From the IMG/VR virus record IMGVR_UViG_3300017987_000362, positions 1 through 23,735 of that record: DNA of 23,735 nt, one strand, 5' to 3'. Both the position numbers and the translations under genes were made by a program. Position 1 is the first letter of the stretch; every line of letters starts with the position of its first letter. The notes beneath the pieces are model-generated. The model saw nothing but the letters and a program-made list of their open reading frames with translations, was not told the DNA's origin and did not search any database. Shown piece after piece: positions 1,948-11,391 of the stretch. This stretch comes from a virus.

Positions 1948-3244
1948 CGCGATCGCGCTTTACGACTATCAAAAGCGCTGGATGACGGACACGGCGCGGT
2001 TCAAGGCGGGGATGTGGGCGCGGCAGACGGGAAAGTCGTTTGCGACGGCGGGCGAGATCGTGCTGGACAGCCGCGAGCAGGACCACAACAAGTGGGTGAC
2101 GATATCCTCCGGGGAGCGGCAGGTCAAGGAGCTGATGGAAAAAGTGCAGCTCCACGGCGAGATCACGGGGATGGCGATCCGGTGGGCCGAAGAAATGATG
2201 GGCTACCGGCTGCCCACGGGGGAAAAAGACGAGTACAAGGTCGTCGAAGCCCGGTTCCACAACGAGAGCAAGATCATCGGAATACCGGCGAACCCGGACA
2301 CGGCGCGGGGCTATTCGGCGAACGTTTACCTGGACGAGTTTTCGGTGCACCGGGGGAGCCGCGAACTGTGGGCGGCGGTGTTTCCGATCATATCGCGGAC
2401 AGGCTACCGGCTGGTGACGACGTTTACGCCGAAAGGCAAGCAGAACAAGGCTTACGAGGTGTGGAACAACCCGATTTTCACCCGGCACAAGGTGGATATT
2501 TACCGGGCGGTGAAAGAGGGCTGCCCGCACGATATCAAGCTGCTGAAGGACGCGATCGACGACCCGGATCTGTGGGCGCAGGAATACGAGCTGGCCTTCC
2601 TGGACGAGGCCACGGCTTTCCTGACCTACGACATGATCAACGAGTGCGAGAGCGACAAGGCGGGCCGCCCGGAACTGTACGCGGGCGGCCGGTGCTATGT
2701 GGGGAACGACATCGGCCGGAGGCGGGATTTGGCGGTGATCTGGGTGCTTGAGGAAGTGGGCGACGTGCTGTGGACCCGCGAGGTCTGCGTGATGAAAAAG
2801 AAATCGTTCGCCGAGCAGGACGCGGAGTTCGACCGGGTGATGGAGAAATACAACGTGGCGCGGGCCTGCATGGACCAGACCGGCATGGGAGAAAAGCCGG
2901 TGGAGGACGCAAAGCGCAGGCACGGGGAGTACCGCGTGGAGGGGGTTTTGTTCACGGGGCCTGCCAAGCTGGATATGGCGATGCCGGTGCGGCGGAAGTT
3001 CGAGGACCGGCTGGTGCGGGTGCCGATGGACCGGCAGATCCGGGATGACCTGCACAGCGTAAAAAAGATCACGACGTCGGCGGGCAACATCCGGTTTGAC
3101 GCGGAGCGGTCGCAGGACTCGCACGCCGACCGGTTCTGGGCTCTGGCCCTGGCCGTGCACGCGGCGGGAGAAGGATCGGCTGTGCCGAGCATATACACGC
3201 TGGGGGGCCTGATGGAAGCGGCGAAAAAGGCGGTCGGCTTATGA
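1934..3244 (+). CDS. Terminase large subunit, Mu gp28-like
   Basis: This is the packaging ATPase and nuclease that drives DNA into the procapsid through the portal. From the ATG at 1934 it is 436 residues. The open frame extends upstream, but that part is only the shifted shadow of the small terminase. Visible motifs are a deviant Walker A WARQTGKS (28-35), a Walker B VYLDE (131-135), a nuclease-type VGNDIGRRRDLAVIW with Asp259, and a C-terminal DSHADRFWALALA with Asp395/Asp399. The protein is shorter than many large terminases but has both halves. The TGA overlaps the ATG of the portal gene. The Mu-type partner set suggests headful packaging, which is inference. Confidence 0.92.
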   Translation: MASSSAIALYDYQKRWMTDTARFKAGMWARQTGKSFATAGEIVLDSREQDHNKWVTISSGERQVKELMEKVQLHGEITGMAIRWAEEMMGYRLPTGEKDEYKVVEARFHNESKIIGIPANPDTARGYSANVYLDEFSVHRGSRELWAAVFPIISRTGYRLVTTFTPKGKQNKAYEVWNNPIFTRHKVDIYRAVKEGCPHDIKLLKDAIDDPDLWAQEYELAFLDEATAFLTYDMINECESDKAGRPELYAGGRCYVGNDIGRRRDLAVIWVLEEVGDVLWTREVCVMKKKSFAEQDAEFDRVMEKYNVARACMDQTGMGEKPVEDAKRRHGEYRVEGVLFTGPAKLDMAMPVRRKFEDRLVRVPMDRQIRDDLHSVKKITTSAGNIRFDAERSQDSHADRFWALALAVHAAGEGSAVPSIYTLGGLMEAAKKAVGL

Positions 3245-5295
3245 GGTGGCTGAAACGGACGATCGACCGGGTTTTGTGGAAGATGGGGCTGATCAAGATA
3301 CCGTCGGGATACGGCGGGACGCACTCGGCCCTGCTGGGATTCTCGAACCTGGGCTCGGCCCGGAAGCAGTGCGAGGCATACCAGTCGCACGTGTACAAGT
3401 GCGTGACCCTGATTTACCGCCGGGCGATCAGCGTGCCCTGGGCTCTGAATAAAATGCGGGGCGACGAAAGCGAGGAAATCAAGAGGCACCCGTTTATTGA
3501 CCTGATGGCGCGGCCGAACCCCTATTTTACGGCCCGGCAGATGAAGGGGCTGACCTTCATGCACCTGGACCTGACCGGCCGGGCCATGTGGCTGATCGTG
3601 CGGAACGGGCTGGGCCGGCCGGCGGAAATCTGGCCGCTTCCGATAGCGAACTTTTCGGAACTGGTTTTTAACAAGGAAAAGACCGACCTGACGGGCTTCA
3701 GATTCGCGAACGATGCGGGCGGGACGATCGTGTATCCGGCCGAAGACGTTGTGTATTTCCGATACCCTCACCCGATTTACATGCTGGAGGGGGCGAGCCC
3801 GATACAGGCGATGGCGTACGCCTACGACACGGACCTGGCGGTGAGGGTGTACCAGCGGAATTTTTTCCAGAATTCGGCCCGGCCGGACGTGGTGTTCGAG
3901 ACCGAGCAGAAGATCGAGCCCGAGGACGCGCAGCGGCTTTTGCTGGCCTGGAAGCAGGCGCACCAGGGCGTGGACAAATCCTGGGAACCGGCCATGCTGG
4001 ACCAGGGTTTGAAGATCAACAAGGTGTCGCTTTCCGCGAAGGATTTCGAGTTCGCGGCCCTGGCCGGGTGGACGAAAGAGGACATCCTGGAGGCGTACAA
4101 CGTGCCGCCCGGCAAGCTGGGGACGGTGACGGACGTGAACCGGGCGAACGCCCTGGGGATCGACATTACGTTTAACTCCGAGTGCATTTCGCCCCGGCTG
4201 GATCTGTTCGACGAGACGGTCTCGCAGGCCCTGCTGCCGCTTTACGACACGGGGCTTTTGATCAAGCACGCGAGCTGCATCCCGCGGGACCTGGAGTATG
4301 ACCTGAAAGAGCGGGACAGCAACCTGAAAAACAAGTACACGACGATCAACGAGGAACGGGCCAGGGCGGGGATGGACCCGGTGGCATGGGGAGACGCGCC
4401 GTTCGTGGCGATCAACGAGATGCAGTGGGGGGACGACCTGGGAATTGTCGATACGGAGAGCCGCAGCGGCGGAAAAGCGGAGATAAAATCCCCCCCGGCC
4501 CCCCTTTACGAAAGGGGGGAGAAAGGCCGGAGGGAGCAGGCCCAGGCGCTGCACGAGCGGAAGGTGGCGGCGCGATCGCGGGCGATGCGGGCGTGGCTGA
4601 GGAAGTTTTTCGGCAGGCAGAAGGCGGGCGTTTTGGAGCGCCTGGAAATGATGTGGCCCAGGATCGAGGGGGCGACGGCCGGAATGAGCCGGAAAAAGGT
4701 TGAGGACTGGATCAAGGAAAACAAGGGCCTGGTGGAGGATGTCAACATCAACCTGGCCGAGGCGAACCGGGAGCTGGCCGACGGGGCCGGGCCGTACATG
4801 GAGGGCGCGGTGCTGGCGGGCGGCGAGGACGCCCTGGGAACCCTGGCCGACGACATCGTTTTCGATTTGAGAAACCCGAGGGTGATCGGGTTCATGGAAG
4901 ACAAAAACCTGCAAATATTGGACATCAACCGTACCACTCAGGAGCAGATCAAGAAGCAGTTGACGGAGGCGATCGAGCAGGGCGAGCCGGTGAAAAAGGC
5001 GGCGGATCGGGTGCGGAAGGTTTTCAGGCACGCCGACGACGTGCGGAGCCTTCGGATCGCACAGACGGAGGTGAACTCCGCGGCGAACTTCGGGACGCTC
5101 GAAGGGTACCGGCAGTCGGGTGCGGTGACCGGAAAGGAATGGCTGGCAGGCCCCGACGCGCGGCCCACGCACCAGGAGGCCGCGAGAAGCTACTCGGGCG
5201 ACGGGGCGATCCCGCTGGATCAGGACTTTGTCGTGGGCAGCGGAAGCGGGCCGGCACCGGGGAGCATAGGGATTCCGGAGGAGGACATCAACTGA
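3241..5295 (+). CDS. Portal protein fused to Mu F-like minor head protein
   Basis: This 684-residue protein joins two head proteins normally made separately. Residues about 1-400 are an HK97-type portal: HVYKCVTLIYRRAISVPW, HPFIDLMARPNPYFTARQ, GASPIQAM and a VPPGKLGTVTDVNRANA segment. Residues about 450-684 are a Mu F/SPP1 gp7-like head morphogenesis domain with the RIAQTEVNSAANFGTLEGY motif. The linker carries a dispersed palindromic element (4485-4530), kept in frame. The domain normally ends in a conserved NCRC motif. Here the frame reaches IN, then TGA, then RCTMLPVVRE and a second TGA at 5326, so the stop falls exactly on the first Cys. Nonsense mutation, readthrough or selenocysteine are all possible. 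Confidence 0.9.
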   Translation: MRWLKRTIDRVLWKMGLIKIPSGYGGTHSALLGFSNLGSARKQCEAYQSHVYKCVTLIYRRAISVPWALNKMRGDESEEIKRHPFIDLMARPNPYFTARQMKGLTFMHLDLTGRAMWLIVRNGLGRPAEIWPLPIANFSELVFNKEKTDLTGFRFANDAGGTIVYPAEDVVYFRYPHPIYMLEGASPIQAMAYAYDTDLAVRVYQRNFFQNSARPDVVFETEQKIEPEDAQRLLLAWKQAHQGVDKSWEPAMLDQGLKINKVSLSAKDFEFAALAGWTKEDILEAYNVPPGKLGTVTDVNRANALGIDITFNSECISPRLDLFDETVSQALLPLYDTGLLIKHASCIPRDLEYDLKERDSNLKNKYTTINEERARAGMDPVAWGDAPFVAINEMQWGDDLGIVDTESRSGGKAEIKSPPAPLYERGEKGRREQAQALHERKVAARSRAMRAWLRKFFGRQKAGVLERLEMMWPRIEGATAGMSRKKVEDWIKENKGLVEDVNINLAEANRELADGAGPYMEGAVLAGGEDALGTLADDIVFDLRNPRVIGFMEDKNLQILDINRTTQEQIKKQLTEAIEQGEPVKKAADRVRKVFRHADDVRSLRIAQTEVNSAANFGTLEGYRQSGAVTGKEWLAGPDARPTHQEAARSYSGDGAIPLDQDFVVGSGSGPAPGSIGIPEEDIN
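4485..4530. repeat. Dispersed palindromic element inside the portal/F linker
   Basis: A perfect 9-bp inverted repeat (CCCCCCTTT at 4499-4507 and AAAGGGGGG at 4511-4519, loop ACG) is flanked by aaatcccccccgg and by gaaaggccgg. It is translated as KSPPAPLYERGEKGR on the + strand. Peptides of this type and their reverse (PPFVKGGRGGF) come from short GC-rich palindromes scattered through many bacterial genomes. It lies in the low-complexity linker between the two domains and does not break the frame, which suggests a tolerated insertion. Confidence 0.7.
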
Positions 5296-5328
5296 AGGTG
5301 CACGATGCTGCCCGTGGTACGGGAGTGA
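5293..5328 (+). other. In-frame TGA at a conserved Cys position with read-on frame and SECIS-like hairpin
   Basis: TGA at 5293-5295 replaces the Cys codon expected in the terminal NCRC motif of the Mu F-like domain. The same frame continues as RCTMLPVVRE to TGA at 5326-5328. Bases 5311-5323 form CCCGT-GGT-ACGGG, a 5-bp stem with a GGT loop whose first base is G. Twenty bases separate the TGA from the loop, inside the spacing range I recall for bacterial SECIS elements. CAC 5301-5303 can pair with GTG 5325-5327 below it. A simple nonsense mutation remains the default explanation. Confidence 0.45.
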
Positions 5329-5389: not shown

Positions 5390-6313
5390 ATGAGTTTGAC
5401 GCACAAGGCGATACCGTTTGAGATCAAGGAGGTCGACGAGGAGGGCCGGACGTTCCTGGCGGTGGCTTCGACCGAGGACGAGGACCGGGACGGCGACCGG
5501 ATCATGGCGGACGGCTGGAACCTGGAAAACTTCCGCAAAAACCCGGTGATCCCCTGGGTGCACCGCTATTCCGACCCGCCCGTGGCCCAGGCCGTGGACG
5601 TGTTCGTGGAGGGCAAAAAGCTGATGTTTCGCCCGAAGTTCGCCTCGGCGGACGAGTATCCGTTTGCGGACACGATTTTCAAGCTCTACAAGGGCGGGTT
5701 TCTTCGGTCCTTTTCCGTGGGGTTTGATCCGAAACGCCACGAGGTGGTCGACCGGGGAAAGGGCCGCCGGGGGTATGACTTCCTGGAGCAGGAGCTGTGG
5801 GAGATCAGCGCCGTGACGGTGCCGAGCAACCCGAACGCGCTGGTGGCCGCGGCGAAAAAGGGCGTGATCAACGAGGACGAGGCCGAGGCGGCGAGGGAGG
5901 CGTTCGAGGAAAAGAAGACGGAAGACGGAAGACGGAAGACGGAAGAAAAAACTGACCCGGAGGACCCGGCTTCGCCGGAGGAAATTGAGCGGGAAATTGA
6001 CAGGCACGAAACGGTGAAAACCGCCGGGGAATGGCTGTCGTCGGCGATGGAAAAAGGGGCGCTTTTGAAGCGCCTGGACGATATGGAAACGAGGCTGGCG
6101 GCGATGGAACGGGCCGCAGGGCAAGAACACGAGACAGCGGACGGAGGACAGCAGGCGGAGGTCGGCCCGGCGGAGCCGGGCGAGGATGAAACCCGAACCG
6201 GGGACAGCGAAGAAGTGCCCGCCCTGATCAATGCCGCGGTGGCTGCCGCGGCAAAACGACTGGGCGGAATGGTCGAGAGCATGATCGAGAAAAAACTCGG
6301 CATCGTAAGATAG
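5390..6313 (+). CDS. Prohead serine protease (peptidase S78) with C-terminal scaffold-like region
   Basis: This 307-residue protein cleaves scaffold and capsid N-termini during HK97-type head maturation. The protease domain covers about residues 1-160: it starts FEIKEVDEEGRTFLAVAS, has catalytic His58 in WVHRYSDPP, and a nucleophile Ser in RSFSVGFD (Ser107 or Ser109), followed by LWEISAVTVPSNPNA. The remaining half is charged, acidic and helical (about 165-307), with coiled-coil character (LLKRLDDMETRLAAMERA), and could be a fused scaffold. That region contains a 4-fold 7-base repeat giving the peptide TEDGRRKTE. RBS aaggagg is ideal. It precedes the capsid gene, as in HK97. Confidence 0.92.
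   Translation: MSLTHKAIPFEIKEVDEEGRTFLAVASTEDEDRDGDRIMADGWNLENFRKNPVIPWVHRYSDPPVAQAVDVFVEGKKLMFRPKFASADEYPFADTIFKLYKGGFLRSFSVGFDPKRHEVVDRGKGRRGYDFLEQELWEISAVTVPSNPNALVAAAKKGVINEDEAEAAREAFEEKKTEDGRRKTEEKTDPEDPASPEEIEREIDRHETVKTAGEWLSSAMEKGALLKRLDDMETRLAAMERAAGQEHETADGGQQAEVGPAEPGEDETRTGDSEEVPALINAAVAAAAKRLGGMVESMIEKKLGIVR
5917..5944 (+). repeat. Four tandem GACGGAA units within the protease gene
   Basis: Four exact copies of the 7-base unit GACGGAA lie in the charged linker of the protease. Because seven is not a multiple of three, the repeat is read in all three phases and gives KTEDGRRKTE. Gain or loss of one unit would shift the frame and remove the scaffold-like half. Confidence 0.85.
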
Positions 6314-6364: not shown

Positions 6365-7591
6365 ATGGAACAAAAAGAAATTATCGCATTGATTGAGCAG
6401 GCGGTGGACAAGGCGCTGAACGAGGATACGGTCAAGCAGTTTGTCGACGCGCGGATCGAAAAAATGCTGGAACCGCTCCGCAAACAGCAGGTCGTGATCG
6501 GGGAGCTGCCGGAGGACGTTCACCGGCCGAAATCGACATTCAGCCAGTTCCTGGGAGACCTGGCGCGGGTCGGCAAGGGCGGTCAGCCGGTCTGGTGTAA
6601 GGGGCAAAATGATTTTATCCCCGTCCAGACCAATATCGACCCGGCATTCTTGAGGTCGCTGATGCCGGAACAGAAAAGCCTGTATGAGGCCACGAACGCA
6701 TCGGGCGGCTACCTGGTACCGACAGAGGAAAGCAGGCAGCTTCTGGACTTGACCTCGAGCTGGGAGGTGATCCCCGGCCTGTGCAACACGGTGCCGATGA
6801 AAACGAACCAGATCACCTTTCCGACGCTTTCGGCGGGCCTGACGGCGTACTGGATACCGGAGTCCCAAAGCATTTCCGGCACGCTTCAAAGCGAGGGCGT
6901 GAAGCAGGAGAGCGACCCGACGTTCGGCCAGATGACCATCACGGCGCATGTGCTGGCCGTGCTGGTGTACGTGTCGAACCAGCTTCTGGACGACTCCGAC
7001 CCGGCCGTGGACAGGGTGCTCTATAACCTGTTTGCAAAAACCCTGGGTAAGCATTTCGACATCGCGTGCGAAAGAGGCACGGGTGCCGCTACGGACCCGG
7101 TGACCGGACTGAACAGTCTGATCACCACAAACGCACTGGCCTGCGGGGCGATCTTCAATTACGACGACATCCTGGACCTGATCTATGAGCCGCTGGACAA
7201 CGGCGACGCCTCCTCAAGGACCATTGACGTGCTCGGCCATACCAAAGCGGAACGGAAATTGCTGAAGGTCAAAGACGACGACGGGCAGTACCTTTTCAAA
7301 ATGCCCGCGGACAAGGTCAAGGGGACGCCTACCATCTGGACGGAGCCCTGGCACCGGGACAACAATATCCAGACCACCCTGGGGGGCGGAACGGATACCC
7401 GGCTTTATTCCGGGGACTTTGAAAATTACGCCTATGTCGGCCAGCGGCAAAGCGTGGTGATAAAGGCGAACCCCTGGGGGAACGCCCAGTTTACCCGGAA
7501 CATGACGGCGTTTCTGGCCGAGTTCCGGAAGGGCTTCAGCGTCTCGAACGAGGCGATGTTTGCCAAAATGGACGGGGTGCCGACCAAGTAA
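6365..7591 (+). CDS. Major capsid protein, HK97 fold
   Basis: This 408-residue protein forms the icosahedral shell. Residues about 1-100 are helical and charged, as in the delta domain removed or used as scaffold in HK97. From about residue 115 the family signature begins: SGGYLVPTEESRQLLDLTSSWEVIPGL, then VPMKTNQITFPTLSAGLTAYWIPE, and the helix FAKTLGKHFDIACERGTGAATDPVTGL. It ends in a basic FSVSNEAMFAKMDGVPTK. Size and position right after the S78 protease fit PF05065. A hairpin and a strong RBS precede the ATG, in line with the high expression a capsid needs. Confidence 0.93.
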   Translation: MEQKEIIALIEQAVDKALNEDTVKQFVDARIEKMLEPLRKQQVVIGELPEDVHRPKSTFSQFLGDLARVGKGGQPVWCKGQNDFIPVQTNIDPAFLRSLMPEQKSLYEATNASGGYLVPTEESRQLLDLTSSWEVIPGLCNTVPMKTNQITFPTLSAGLTAYWIPESQSISGTLQSEGVKQESDPTFGQMTITAHVLAVLVYVSNQLLDDSDPAVDRVLYNLFAKTLGKHFDIACERGTGAATDPVTGLNSLITTNALACGAIFNYDDILDLIYEPLDNGDASSRTIDVLGHTKAERKLLKVKDDDGQYLFKMPADKVKGTPTIWTEPWHRDNNIQTTLGGGTDTRLYSGDFENYAYVGQRQSVVIKANPWGNAQFTRNMTAFLAEFRKGFSVSNEAMFAKMDGVPTK

Positions 7592-7601
7592 ACAGCAGGC
7601 C

Positions 7602-7636
7602 GTGAAAGGGAAAAAGCAAAAAGTGAAAAAATAAAC
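7602..7636 (+). repeat. Purine-rich period-7 tract after capsid gene
   Basis: Five consecutive 7-base units follow GGCC: GTGAAAG, GGAAAAA, GCAAAAA, GTGAAAA and AATAAAC. The same register and unit type recur at 8359, 12525, 13217 and 14206. The tract fills most of the gap between capsid and the next gene. Confidence 0.65.
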
Positions 7637-7640
7637 AACG

Positions 7641-7664
7641 GCCCTCGATGAAGCCGCGGAGGGC
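7641..7664 (+). promoter_or_regulatory. Hairpin directly upstream of RBS
   Basis: GCCCTC (7641-7646) pairs with GAGGGC (7659-7664), a 6-bp stem with a twelve-base loop. The strong RBS aaggaggt begins at the next base, eight bases before the ATG at 7680. This repeats the hairpin-then-RBS layout seen before the protease and capsid genes. Confidence 0.5.
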
Positions 7665-7679
7665 AAGGAGGTAAACGAG

Positions 7680-8351
7680 ATGAAAATCAGGGAAATGATC
7701 AGAGGAAAAACGTCATGGGGACCGAAGCTGGCGGCGTTGTCGGCGCTTTTCGCGATTTTGGCCATGCTGCTGGCACCTGTCCAGGCGTTGGCGCTTGACC
7801 CGATTTTTACGAAAAACGCCACGGGCTCGTCAAGCCACGTGACCCTGGGAACAACGGCGAACGTGGGCGCAGTGGCAATGATCCCCGGAGACAACAATAG
7901 CCAGGTGGTCGTCACGTCGATCAGCATGACATCGGACTGCTCATCGAGCACGTCGGACGCCTTTATCTACGATAAGGAAAACGAGGCGTCCGTAAACAGC
8001 ACGAGCGCGGCCGGGCAGACGGAGATCGGGATTTCAAGCGGCGGCGCGAATTTCGATCAGTTTGACATCATCGTGATCCAGAATGCCAGCGGAAGCCGGA
8101 TTTTTTACGAGACGGTTTCGAGCGTGGGGGCCACAACGATTGCAACCGTCGGCGCCCTGGATTACAGCGTGGGGACCGGTTACACGGTTTATGAGATGGA
8201 GCACATCGGGACGATCCCTGTGGACAATGCGACCGTTTCATTCAACTCGGACGTGGCGGTCGTCGCCGGAGCGACGGATAGCCCTCTGTTGATCTGGTTG
8301 GGCGGCGCGACGGCATGTTCCATTAACTTCGCCTCCGGACATTACAAGTAG
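7680..8351 (+). CDS. Secreted or exported protein of unknown function, possible head decoration
   Basis: This 223-residue protein starts with a clear signal peptide: basic MKIREMIRGK, a hydrophobic core at about 17-34 and an ALA motif, with likely cleavage after Ala38 (before LDPIF). The mature part is about 185 residues, rich in Ser, Thr, Gly and Val, with beta-strand character and two Cys (TSDCSSS and ATACSIN) that could form a disulfide in the periplasm. I do not recognise a family. Its position straight after the capsid gene is where decoration proteins usually lie, but an export signal does not fit cytoplasmic head assembly. Either it is a lysogenic-conversion or superinfection-exclusion type cargo, or the hydrophobic N-terminus has another job. 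Confidence 0.8.
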   Translation: MKIREMIRGKTSWGPKLAALSALFAILAMLLAPVQALALDPIFTKNATGSSSHVTLGTTANVGAVAMIPGDNNSQVVVTSISMTSDCSSSTSDAFIYDKENEASVNSTSAAGQTEIGISSGGANFDQFDIIVIQNASGSRIFYETVSSVGATTIATVGALDYSVGTGYTVYEMEHIGTIPVDNATVSFNSDVAVVAGATDSPLLIWLGGATACSINFASGHYK

Positions 8352-8358
8352 ACGGGCG

Positions 8359-8379
8359 GCAAAAGGCGAAAGGCCAAAG
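8359..8379 (+). repeat. Three period-7 units (GCAAAAG, GCGAAAG, GCCAAAG)
   Basis: Three 7-base units with the pattern GCNAAAG follow the stop of the secreted-protein gene and lead into the hairpin at 8384. They belong to the same period-7 family as the tracts at 7602, 12525, 13217 and 14206. Confidence 0.65.
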
Positions 8380-8383
8380 GAGA

Positions 8384-8407
8384 CCGGGGCGGGATGCCCC
8401 GTCCCGG
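8384..8407 (+). promoter_or_regulatory. GC-rich hairpin between capsid-side and accessory genes
   Basis: CCGGGGCGGG (8384-8393) pairs with CCCGTCCCGG (8398-8407) over ten base pairs with one G-T pair and loop ATGC. It is followed by cttcctt, which is only weakly T-rich, so it might attenuate transcription but is not a clear intrinsic terminator. The RBS aggaggt follows 13 bases later. Confidence 0.5.
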
Positions 8408-8431
8408 CTTCCTTAAATAGAGGAGGTAAAA

Positions 8432-8680
8432 ATGAGCGTAATAATTGTAAACGAAGCTCGGTTCAACGGCAAGGACGCGGGCACGGTGCACGAGGCCGAC
8501 AAGGCCGACGCCGAAAAATGGACCGCGATGGGCCTGGCCCGAAAGGCTACGAAAAAAGAAATCGAGGCGGCCTCGGCAGCAGGGGAAAGCCCTAAGGGGG
8601 ACGGCGAAGACGGGGAAAAGGGCTTAGACGGCGGCCCGCCCGCGGACAAGGCGAAAAAGGAGGCGGACAAAAAGAAATGA
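8432..8680 (+). CDS. Small charged protein downstream of capsid
   Basis: This 82-residue protein begins with a short folded part (MSVIIVNEARFNGKDAG, then ADAEKWTAMGLARKAT) that resembles the small 'W-x-x-x-G-L-A' proteins found between capsid and connector genes in many siphoviruses. The rest (about 45-82) is disordered and dominated by Gly, Asp, Glu and Lys, ending KKEADKKK. It could be a head or neck accessory protein. The RBS aggaggt is strong. Its stop overlaps the start of the next gene (ATGA), coupling an assembly gene to an O-antigen-ligase-like gene. Confidence 0.7.
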   Translation: MSVIIVNEARFNGKDAGTVHEADKADAEKWTAMGLARKATKKEIEAASAAGESPKGDGEDGEKGLDGGPPADKAKKEADKKK

Positions 8681-10611: not shown

Positions 10612-11391
10612 ATGGCTAAGCGGAATGAACAAATAAATTCCGTGCTCAACTGGGTCGGGGGAAAGCGATTGTTGAGAAAAAAGATCCTGCCGGTGATTCA
10701 GGGGGACATTGATTGCTACGTGGAACCCTTTGGGGGTGCGGCATGGATTTTGTTTGCAAAAGCAAGGTGGGCGCGGGTGGAGGTATATAACGATTTAGAC
10801 TCTCGGCTGGTAAATTTTTTTAAGGTAGTCAAATACCATTTTGATGCCCTGCAAGGCGAATACTCCATGCTGATATCAAGCAGGAGTTTATTTAAAGAGT
10901 TCTTAGATCAGAAGGGGCTGACGGACATTCAGCGGGCCGCTCGGTTCTTGTATTTAATAAAAAACAGTTTCGGTGGCAAGGGGAGGGATTTCGGCATAAC
11001 GAAAAGTTCAGGGGGGGGGGCGGTAACTTCAACCGCAGGGACTATGGCGCTGGCTGAAAAGGTCTCGCGTCGGTTGGACAAAGTGATAATTGAGTGTCTG
11101 GATTTTCAAGAAATTTTCAATCGATACGATGCCGAAAAAACGTTTTTTTATTGTGACCCGCCCTATTTCAAAGGGGCGAGATATTACCAGGGTCCGGAGT
11201 TTAAACACGAACGCTTGGCCGAGGTGCTGAGGCAGACAAAAGGCCGGTGGATGTTGAGCATCGACGATTGCGAGGCGAGCCGCAAAATGTTCGGAGGTTG
11301 GAAATTTAGCGAAGTATCCAGGAATACCGGGATCAACAAAAGGAAGATTAAAAACCCCATGTTTAAAGAGCTGTTGATACGGAATTATTAA
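10612..11391 (+). CDS. DNA adenine N6-methyltransferase, D12/Dam class
   Basis: This 259-residue enzyme transfers a methyl group from S-adenosylmethionine to adenine N6 in DNA. Motifs are NWVGGKR (13-19), EPFGGAAW for cofactor binding (about 37-44), and catalytic DPPY at 182-185. Length and order fit Dam-like D12 methylases. The gene is clearly foreign to its surroundings: a 60-base line inside it (10801-10860) has 24 G/C, against 39 of 60 in the connector gene upstream (10441-10500). It separates two neck genes. A run of ten G lies at 11011-11020 (codons 134-137) between the cofactor and catalytic motifs; slippage would switch the gene off. Likely roles are protection from host restriction or changed host methylation. 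Confidence 0.92.
   Translation: MAKRNEQINSVLNWVGGKRLLRKKILPVIQGDIDCYVEPFGGAAWILFAKARWARVEVYNDLDSRLVNFFKVVKYHFDALQGEYSMLISSRSLFKEFLDQKGLTDIQRAARFLYLIKNSFGGKGRDFGITKSSGGGAVTSTAGTMALAEKVSRRLDKVIIECLDFQEIFNRYDAEKTFFYCDPPYFKGARYYQGPEFKHERLAEVLRQTKGRWMLSIDDCEASRKMFGGWKFSEVSRNTGINKRKIKNPMFKELLIRNY
11011..11020 (+). repeat. Homopolymer run of ten G in methylase gene
   Basis: Ten consecutive G interrupt the methylase reading frame region around codons 134-137 (translated SGGGAV). With ten G the frame is open. Losing or gaining one G would shift the frame before the catalytic DPPY motif. Long G runs in methylase genes are a known phase-variation signature in bacteria. Confidence 0.9.

Follow-up and report, generated by a model that had tools for sequence, protein, structure and literature searches.

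An in-frame UGA at a conserved cysteine position of phage MuF head proteins as a probable selenocysteine codon

RESULTS

The portal-MuF fusion gene contains an in-frame TGA codon

The analyzed stretch of DNA (the window) corresponds to a virus record of 23.7 kb in IMG/VR. Positions 3241–5328 of its forward strand hold a portal-MuF fusion gene, which encodes 684 residues, a proposed selenocysteine (Sec685), and a further 10 residues when the UGA is read through. Residues 50–375 match the Phage_portal family (PF04860; E 1.5e-59, 202.2 bits, cut-off 39.1), and the protein also belongs to the portal family phrog_2662. The MuF domain (Phage_Mu_F, PF04233; E 6e-10, 40.2 bits, cut-off 29.6) comprises residues 569–689, encoded at 4945–5307. 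Because both matches are above the curated cut-offs, membership in the portal-MuF fusions is met. When the TGA is read as Cys, the PF04233 model spans this codon and continues up to residue 689.

The in-frame TGA at 5293–5295 occupies the first Cys position of the motif D-I-N-C-R-C. We propose it as a selenocysteine codon on the basis of the sequence and of the codons that relatives carry at this position. It is followed by the codons AGG TGC ACG ATG CTG CCC GTG GTA CGG GAG and then by the TGA at 5326–5328, at which the extended frame truly ends and which has no comparable hairpin behind it. The tail RCTMLPVVRE (5296–5325), including the second Cys codon TGC (5299–5301), is read as translated because of its conserved motif and purifying selection. 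The first-pass annotation had described a TGA replacing the Cys of N-C-R-C, with the frame running on as RCTMLPVVRE, and the sequence agrees with this description. It had also listed TGA as a normal stop at 3242, 8678, 11855, 12061, and 14567; this was confirmed, and no such hairpin lies behind any of these codons. The next head gene (5390–6313, forward strand) is an ordinary neighbor with its own ribosome-binding site, AGGAGG.

The same TGA is present in a 100%-identical 10.3-kb stretch of another IMG/VR record (L001/L022). A random base error is unlikely because this second contig shows the same base, with the reservation that it is possibly not an independent sample. A TGC or TGT at this codon upon resequencing had been named as a refutation of the selenoprotein idea; this is not met, as the base recurs.

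The portal part of the gene carries an in-frame palindromic insert at 4486–4525 (CCCCCC...TTTACGAAAGGGGGG, translated SPPAPLYERGEKG), which is absent in the relative L002 and largely absent in L003 and L004. A similar palindrome (CCCCCTTTGCAAAGGGGG) is located just 3′ of the portal-MuF gene of L004. The insert looks like a dispersed repeat, perhaps one that is common to hosts too. Among the head genes of the window there is also a Dam-like adenine methyltransferase gene (10612–11391), judged by its sequence (WVGGKRLLRKKILP, DPPYF) alone.

TGA recurs at the first Cys codon in divergent relatives

Three independent relatives (L002, L003, and L004) share 54–60% identity with the window over the portal-MuF protein. 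In L002 and L003, the first Cys of N-C-R-C is encoded by TGC. L004, which is 54% identical to the window, has TGA at the same codon, followed by RCSILPVVRKE and a stop. Pattern scans for I-N-TGA-R-C retrieved two more MuF proteins with TGA at this codon, L024 and L027; the other matches to this pattern were dismissed as chance, as their upstream frame was closed.

The profile scan covered 80 MuF loci that were picked via two short peptide patterns. One of these patterns was EDINCRC, so the scan is biased toward Cys. The first-Cys codon was TGA in three of the 80 loci (L004, L024, and L027), and the rest had TGC or TGT. With the window included, TGA was found at this codon in four divergent phages, and all other relatives whose codon was read have TGC or TGT. 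Elsewhere in the same MuF domains, a single genuine stop is present among 10,660 codons (TAG, in L072); what looked like two stops in L088 proved on inspection not to be stop codons. The excess of TGA at the Cys codon over these 10,660 codons had a p-value of 1.6e-6 (80 profile-scan relatives). These codons were the control for stop placement, without a collection-wide control for TAA/TAG or for Arg-to-TGA changes. When TGA is counted as Cys, C-R-C is invariant in 64 of the 64 aligned relatives.

In the tree, the TGA phages fall into two small groups, each beside Cys neighbors. Descent of the four TGA lineages from one origin was neither shown nor rejected (p-AU 0.13); the domain is short and resolution at the forks is poor, and a common origin followed by losses is not excluded. 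The GTDB genome scan gave no TGA at the MuF Cys site, and its two TGA-pattern matches were due to chance, with closed upstream frames. In the host search, the portal query had no match among the genome contigs, and none of the few isolate phages examined has TGA at the MuF Cys site.

A second MuF family has TGA at the second Cys codon

A scan for TGA at the second Cys was planned as a negative control, but instead revealed another family of TGA-containing proteins. L115, L118, and L121 are true MuF proteins with the sequence GITDINCR-TGA-TYSPVIEVQ-stop. Over the C-terminal domain, L118 and L121 are 89% and 82% identical to L115, respectively, and the identity between the L115 family and the window family is about 19–26%. 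In 11 other members of the L115 family with readable tails, the second-Cys codon is TGC or TGT. In L115 and L118, the extended frame and the gene behind it share bases at their stop and start (ATGATG), as coupled genes do. Most matches of the TGA-pattern scans overall were attributable to chance by a closed upstream frame.

Judged from these alignments, UGA has replaced each cysteine of C-x-C, in different lineages. The Cys/UGA pair criterion for a bacterial selenoprotein is met, with TGA in four and three distinct phages of the two families, respectively, and TGC/TGT in the rest.

The sequence behind the TGA is maintained as coding

In the post-TGA codons of the pairs window/L004, L024/L027, and L115/L121, pS was 0.71 and pN was 0.14 (p = 2.7e-7). 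The post-TGA tail is under purifying selection, some of which could go back to an ancestor that encoded Cys. In L024, 353 open codons follow the TGA, beginning with a Pro-rich linker, and the first 100 of these contain no ATG, GTG, TTG, or CTG. At the composition of L024, the chance of 353 open codons is ~1.5e-7, and that of the first 100 is ~0.01. The purifying selection and the 353 codons of L024 meet the selenoprotein criterion of coding conservation past the UGA. The pseudogene criterion, that is, decay past the stop and stops spread through the gene, is not met. Relatives that end naturally at this point would have refuted the selenoprotein idea; this was checked and is not so.

Behind the TGA and the Pro-rich linker, L024 encodes a C-terminal domain of ~340 residues (7402–8463, reverse strand). 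It has no Pfam match above the cut-off and shows distant similarity to a protein of the Pelagibacter phage HTVC026P. By its look, the sequence NEFAHHIHQ within this domain is metallopeptidase-like.

SECIS-like hairpins follow the TGA codons at near-constant spacing

The published bSECIS rule (PMC13188914, Fig. 2A) requires a loop of 3–9 nt, a stem of 4–16 bp, a G in the first two loop positions, a spacing of 16–37 nt, and an MFE of ≤ −7.5. The SECIS-like hairpin of the window (5311–5323, forward strand), with a 5-bp stem and the loop GGU starting 20 nt past the UGA, passes this rule at −8.8 kcal/mol. The rule is also passed by L024 (loop AGUU at +20, −8.6 kcal/mol), L027 (10-bp stem, AGUU at +20, −13.6 kcal/mol), and L115 (9-bp stem, GGU at +20, −7.7 kcal/mol). 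L118 (9-bp stem, GGU at +20) and L121 (8-bp stem, AGGUG at +19), both at −6.8, miss the −7.5 energy limit by 0.7 kcal/mol. The hairpin of L004 is weaker, with the loop GGUC at +17, and fits only when an internal stem mismatch is allowed. The loop therefore starts at +19 or +20 in six of the seven TGA phages, including the two slightly short of the energy cut-off. The stems of the window and the L115 family are unrelated in sequence, but their loop and spacing agree.

In both families, the hairpins are more stable in the TGA phages than in the Cys relatives (p = 0.008 and 0.004). The loose bSECIS rule is also passed by 10 of 79 Cys relatives. When codons were shuffled synonymously for comparison, the hairpin was unusual in L115 (0.003), L118 (0.009), L121 (0.02), and L027 (0.02), but not in the window (0.18) or L004 (0.38). 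In L024, the SECIS-like hairpin is not the best free fold, as a different fold is preferred. The shuffle and stability tests were not corrected for the number of tests. Within the window, a hairpin as stable is preceded by 5 of the 582 TGA triplets and by none of the six ordinary TGA stops checked. A search of Rfam gave no match. The hairpin CCCGT/GGT/ACGGG with 20 nt between UGA and loop, to which the first-pass annotation had pointed, is present, but it is weak evidence by itself (shuffle value 0.18).

No SECIS-like hairpin was stronger than that of L003 (3580–3609; GGU at +20, −14.2 kcal/mol), a relative with TGC. In form it is the window hairpin with a stem of 8 bp, and it is unusual against synonymous shuffles (0.004). 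L003 may represent a recent Sec-to-Cys reversal, with the hairpin as a fossil of the former Sec codon.

DISCUSSION

Decoding of the UGA

We consider it probable, at roughly 80%, that the UGA at 5293–5295 is decoded as selenocysteine in the MuF domain via the host machinery and a short SECIS hairpin. The initial suggestion of a selenoprotein or readthrough has gained support from the recurrent TGA, the selection on the tail, the open frame of L024, and the near-constant hairpin spacing. The recoding must depend on local context because UGA still serves as the stop of other genes in these genomes, and the Cys/UGA exchange together with the SelB-type hairpin spacing therefore points to selenocysteine. 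No tRNA-Sec was found in the nine phage records examined, so the host would have to supply the Sec machinery. That the inserted residue is Sec is inferred, as there are no direct data on selenium or on host Sec genes. In the proposed mechanism, host SelA, SelB, SelC, and SelD would decode the UGA with the help of the bacterial SECIS loop that starts 20 nt downstream. Since termination is in competition with decoding at the UGA, the inference is that portal rings would mix full-length subunits and subunits without the tail; in L024, the shorter subunits would miss the 353-residue extension. With moderate confidence, we extend this reading to a class of tailed phages with selenoprotein virions, in which Sec has been gained and lost at one or the other cysteine of the MuF C-x-C and the UGA sets the fraction of subunits that bear the tail or domain.

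A programmed leaky stop, at which a near-cognate tRNA (e.g., for Trp or Arg) reads the UGA at a low rate and gives a minority of tailed subunits without selenium, would also be compatible with a tail conserved as coding sequence and with the entire extra domain behind the UGA of L024, and the hairpin could stimulate such readthrough. However, the UGA is found only at codons of invariant cysteines, in different families, a preference for which a leaky stop offers no reason, and the loop and spacing of the hairpin fit the SelB type. We regard this explanation as unlikely, without dismissing it. Reassignment of TGA to a sense codon throughout the genome has precedents in phages with reassigned stops, but the extended gene and several other window genes end in TGA. 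Recoding of the whole code, already deemed unlikely in the first-pass annotation, can for practical purposes be set aside.

Fresh nonsense mutations from TGC to TGA, which would have independently broken the gene end in a few phages, need one base change each. The small number of lineages with TGA and the weak hairpin of the window would suit such an origin, and the conservation of the tail could be inherited. It is nevertheless very unlikely that such mutations would recur at two Cys codons as compared to one other stop in 10,660 codons, that one would be common to three phages of the second family (82–89% identical) with tail and hairpin kept, and that 353 codons would still be open in L024. 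The proteins might instead end naturally at the UGA with a dispensable C-R-C tail, and for the window, L004, and L027 this would mean the loss of only about 10 residues. This possibility is hardly tenable in view of a C-R-C that is invariant in all aligned relatives, the purifying selection on the tail, and the loss of 353 residues that it would entail in L024.

Relation to known systems

The selenocysteine reading places the MuF proteins beside bacterial selenoproteins such as the formate dehydrogenases of E. coli, in which an in-frame UGA aligns with the Cys of homologs and TGA is otherwise a stop. A hairpin 16–37 nt downstream with a G in the first loop positions is a further point of resemblance (PMC13188914, Fig. 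2A), with the full rule passed by the window, L024, L027, and L115 only. Known selenoprotein families, in contrast, are cellular and mostly redox enzymes, and here the candidate is a portal/head protein of the virion. The domain, the N-C-R-C motif, and the portal fusion are those of MuF/SPP1 gp7 minor head proteins and MuF polymorphic toxins (PF04233; PMC5576092, PMC6316719), and C-terminal extensions past N-C-R-C also occur in some MuF proteins and toxins. What differs is the UGA in place of the first Cys (window family) or the second Cys (L115 family). The MuF toxin paper (PMC5576092) mentions neither cysteine nor selenium. Code-15 phages also read a stop as sense in phage genes (PMC9523058), but here the recoding concerns one codon only and TGA remains a stop elsewhere.

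A link between phages and selenocysteine has been claimed for Basilisk-like Bacillus phages, which were reported to have a tRNA-Sec (PMC6145125). The claim is a tRNA gene call, and the passages on it name no phage selenoprotein; here, conversely, the phage has a candidate selenoprotein but no tRNA-Sec was found in the phage records examined. It was the only such claim found in the open-access literature without preprints, and prior reports may exist. Phage, virus, and capsid all go unmentioned in a 2026 review of prokaryotic selenoproteins, and the relevant passages of other selenoprotein reviews and surveys contain no phage selenoprotein. Selenoprotein decoding as such is known; as far as could be seen, a phage head protein that uses selenocysteine is undescribed. 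If our reading is true, these proteins form a phage virion selenoprotein family that is missing, as far as seen, from the current prokaryotic selenoprotein catalog. A practical warning is that such proteins are cut short by gene callers, which in the case of L024 miss the whole C-terminal domain.

Possible role of the C-x-C site

The AlphaFold2 model of the region encoded by 4693–5319 has a mean pLDDT of 93. No relative of the MuF domain was found in the PDB by sequence or fold, and the matches in BFVD were MuF proteins, minor capsid proteins, and portal fusions. Arg641 (codon 5161–5163) and His644 (codon 5170–5172) are each kept in 62 of 64 relatives, and His644 is a candidate partner of the C-x-C pair. 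In the two exceptions, L101 and L103, Arg-x-x-His is replaced by C-x-x-C, and the resulting arrangement C-x-x-C...C-x-C looks like that of a four-Cys zinc ribbon. Conservation of this kind suggests, by inference only, that C-x-C and the conserved Arg/His form a metal or redox site. An exchange of one Cys or the other for Sec is what redox-active or metal-binding pairs typically show. In the phages with the first-Cys UGA, U-R-C may act as such a pair together with the conserved Arg/His.

The findings offer a handle on the unexplained role of the invariant C-x-C in MuF head proteins. The MuF protein gp7 of SPP1 travels in the virion and helps infection to begin (PMC6316719). If the virion-selenoprotein reading is true, C-x-C would be a redox or metal site of a protein carried in the phage head, and the fraction of portal subunits bearing the tail or the L024 domain would be tied to the selenium supply of the host.

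The first Cys of N-C-R-C is also the exact starting point of intein-like insertions in L039 (2067), L135 (3859), L137 (394), and L138 (4367). They are present in both MuF families, with INC-FIDPQVPIFTNQG and INC-LPGDSYLDNNSFCEKL as examples, and in L135 the tail picks up again as NCRCTYSPIIEVQ after the insertion.
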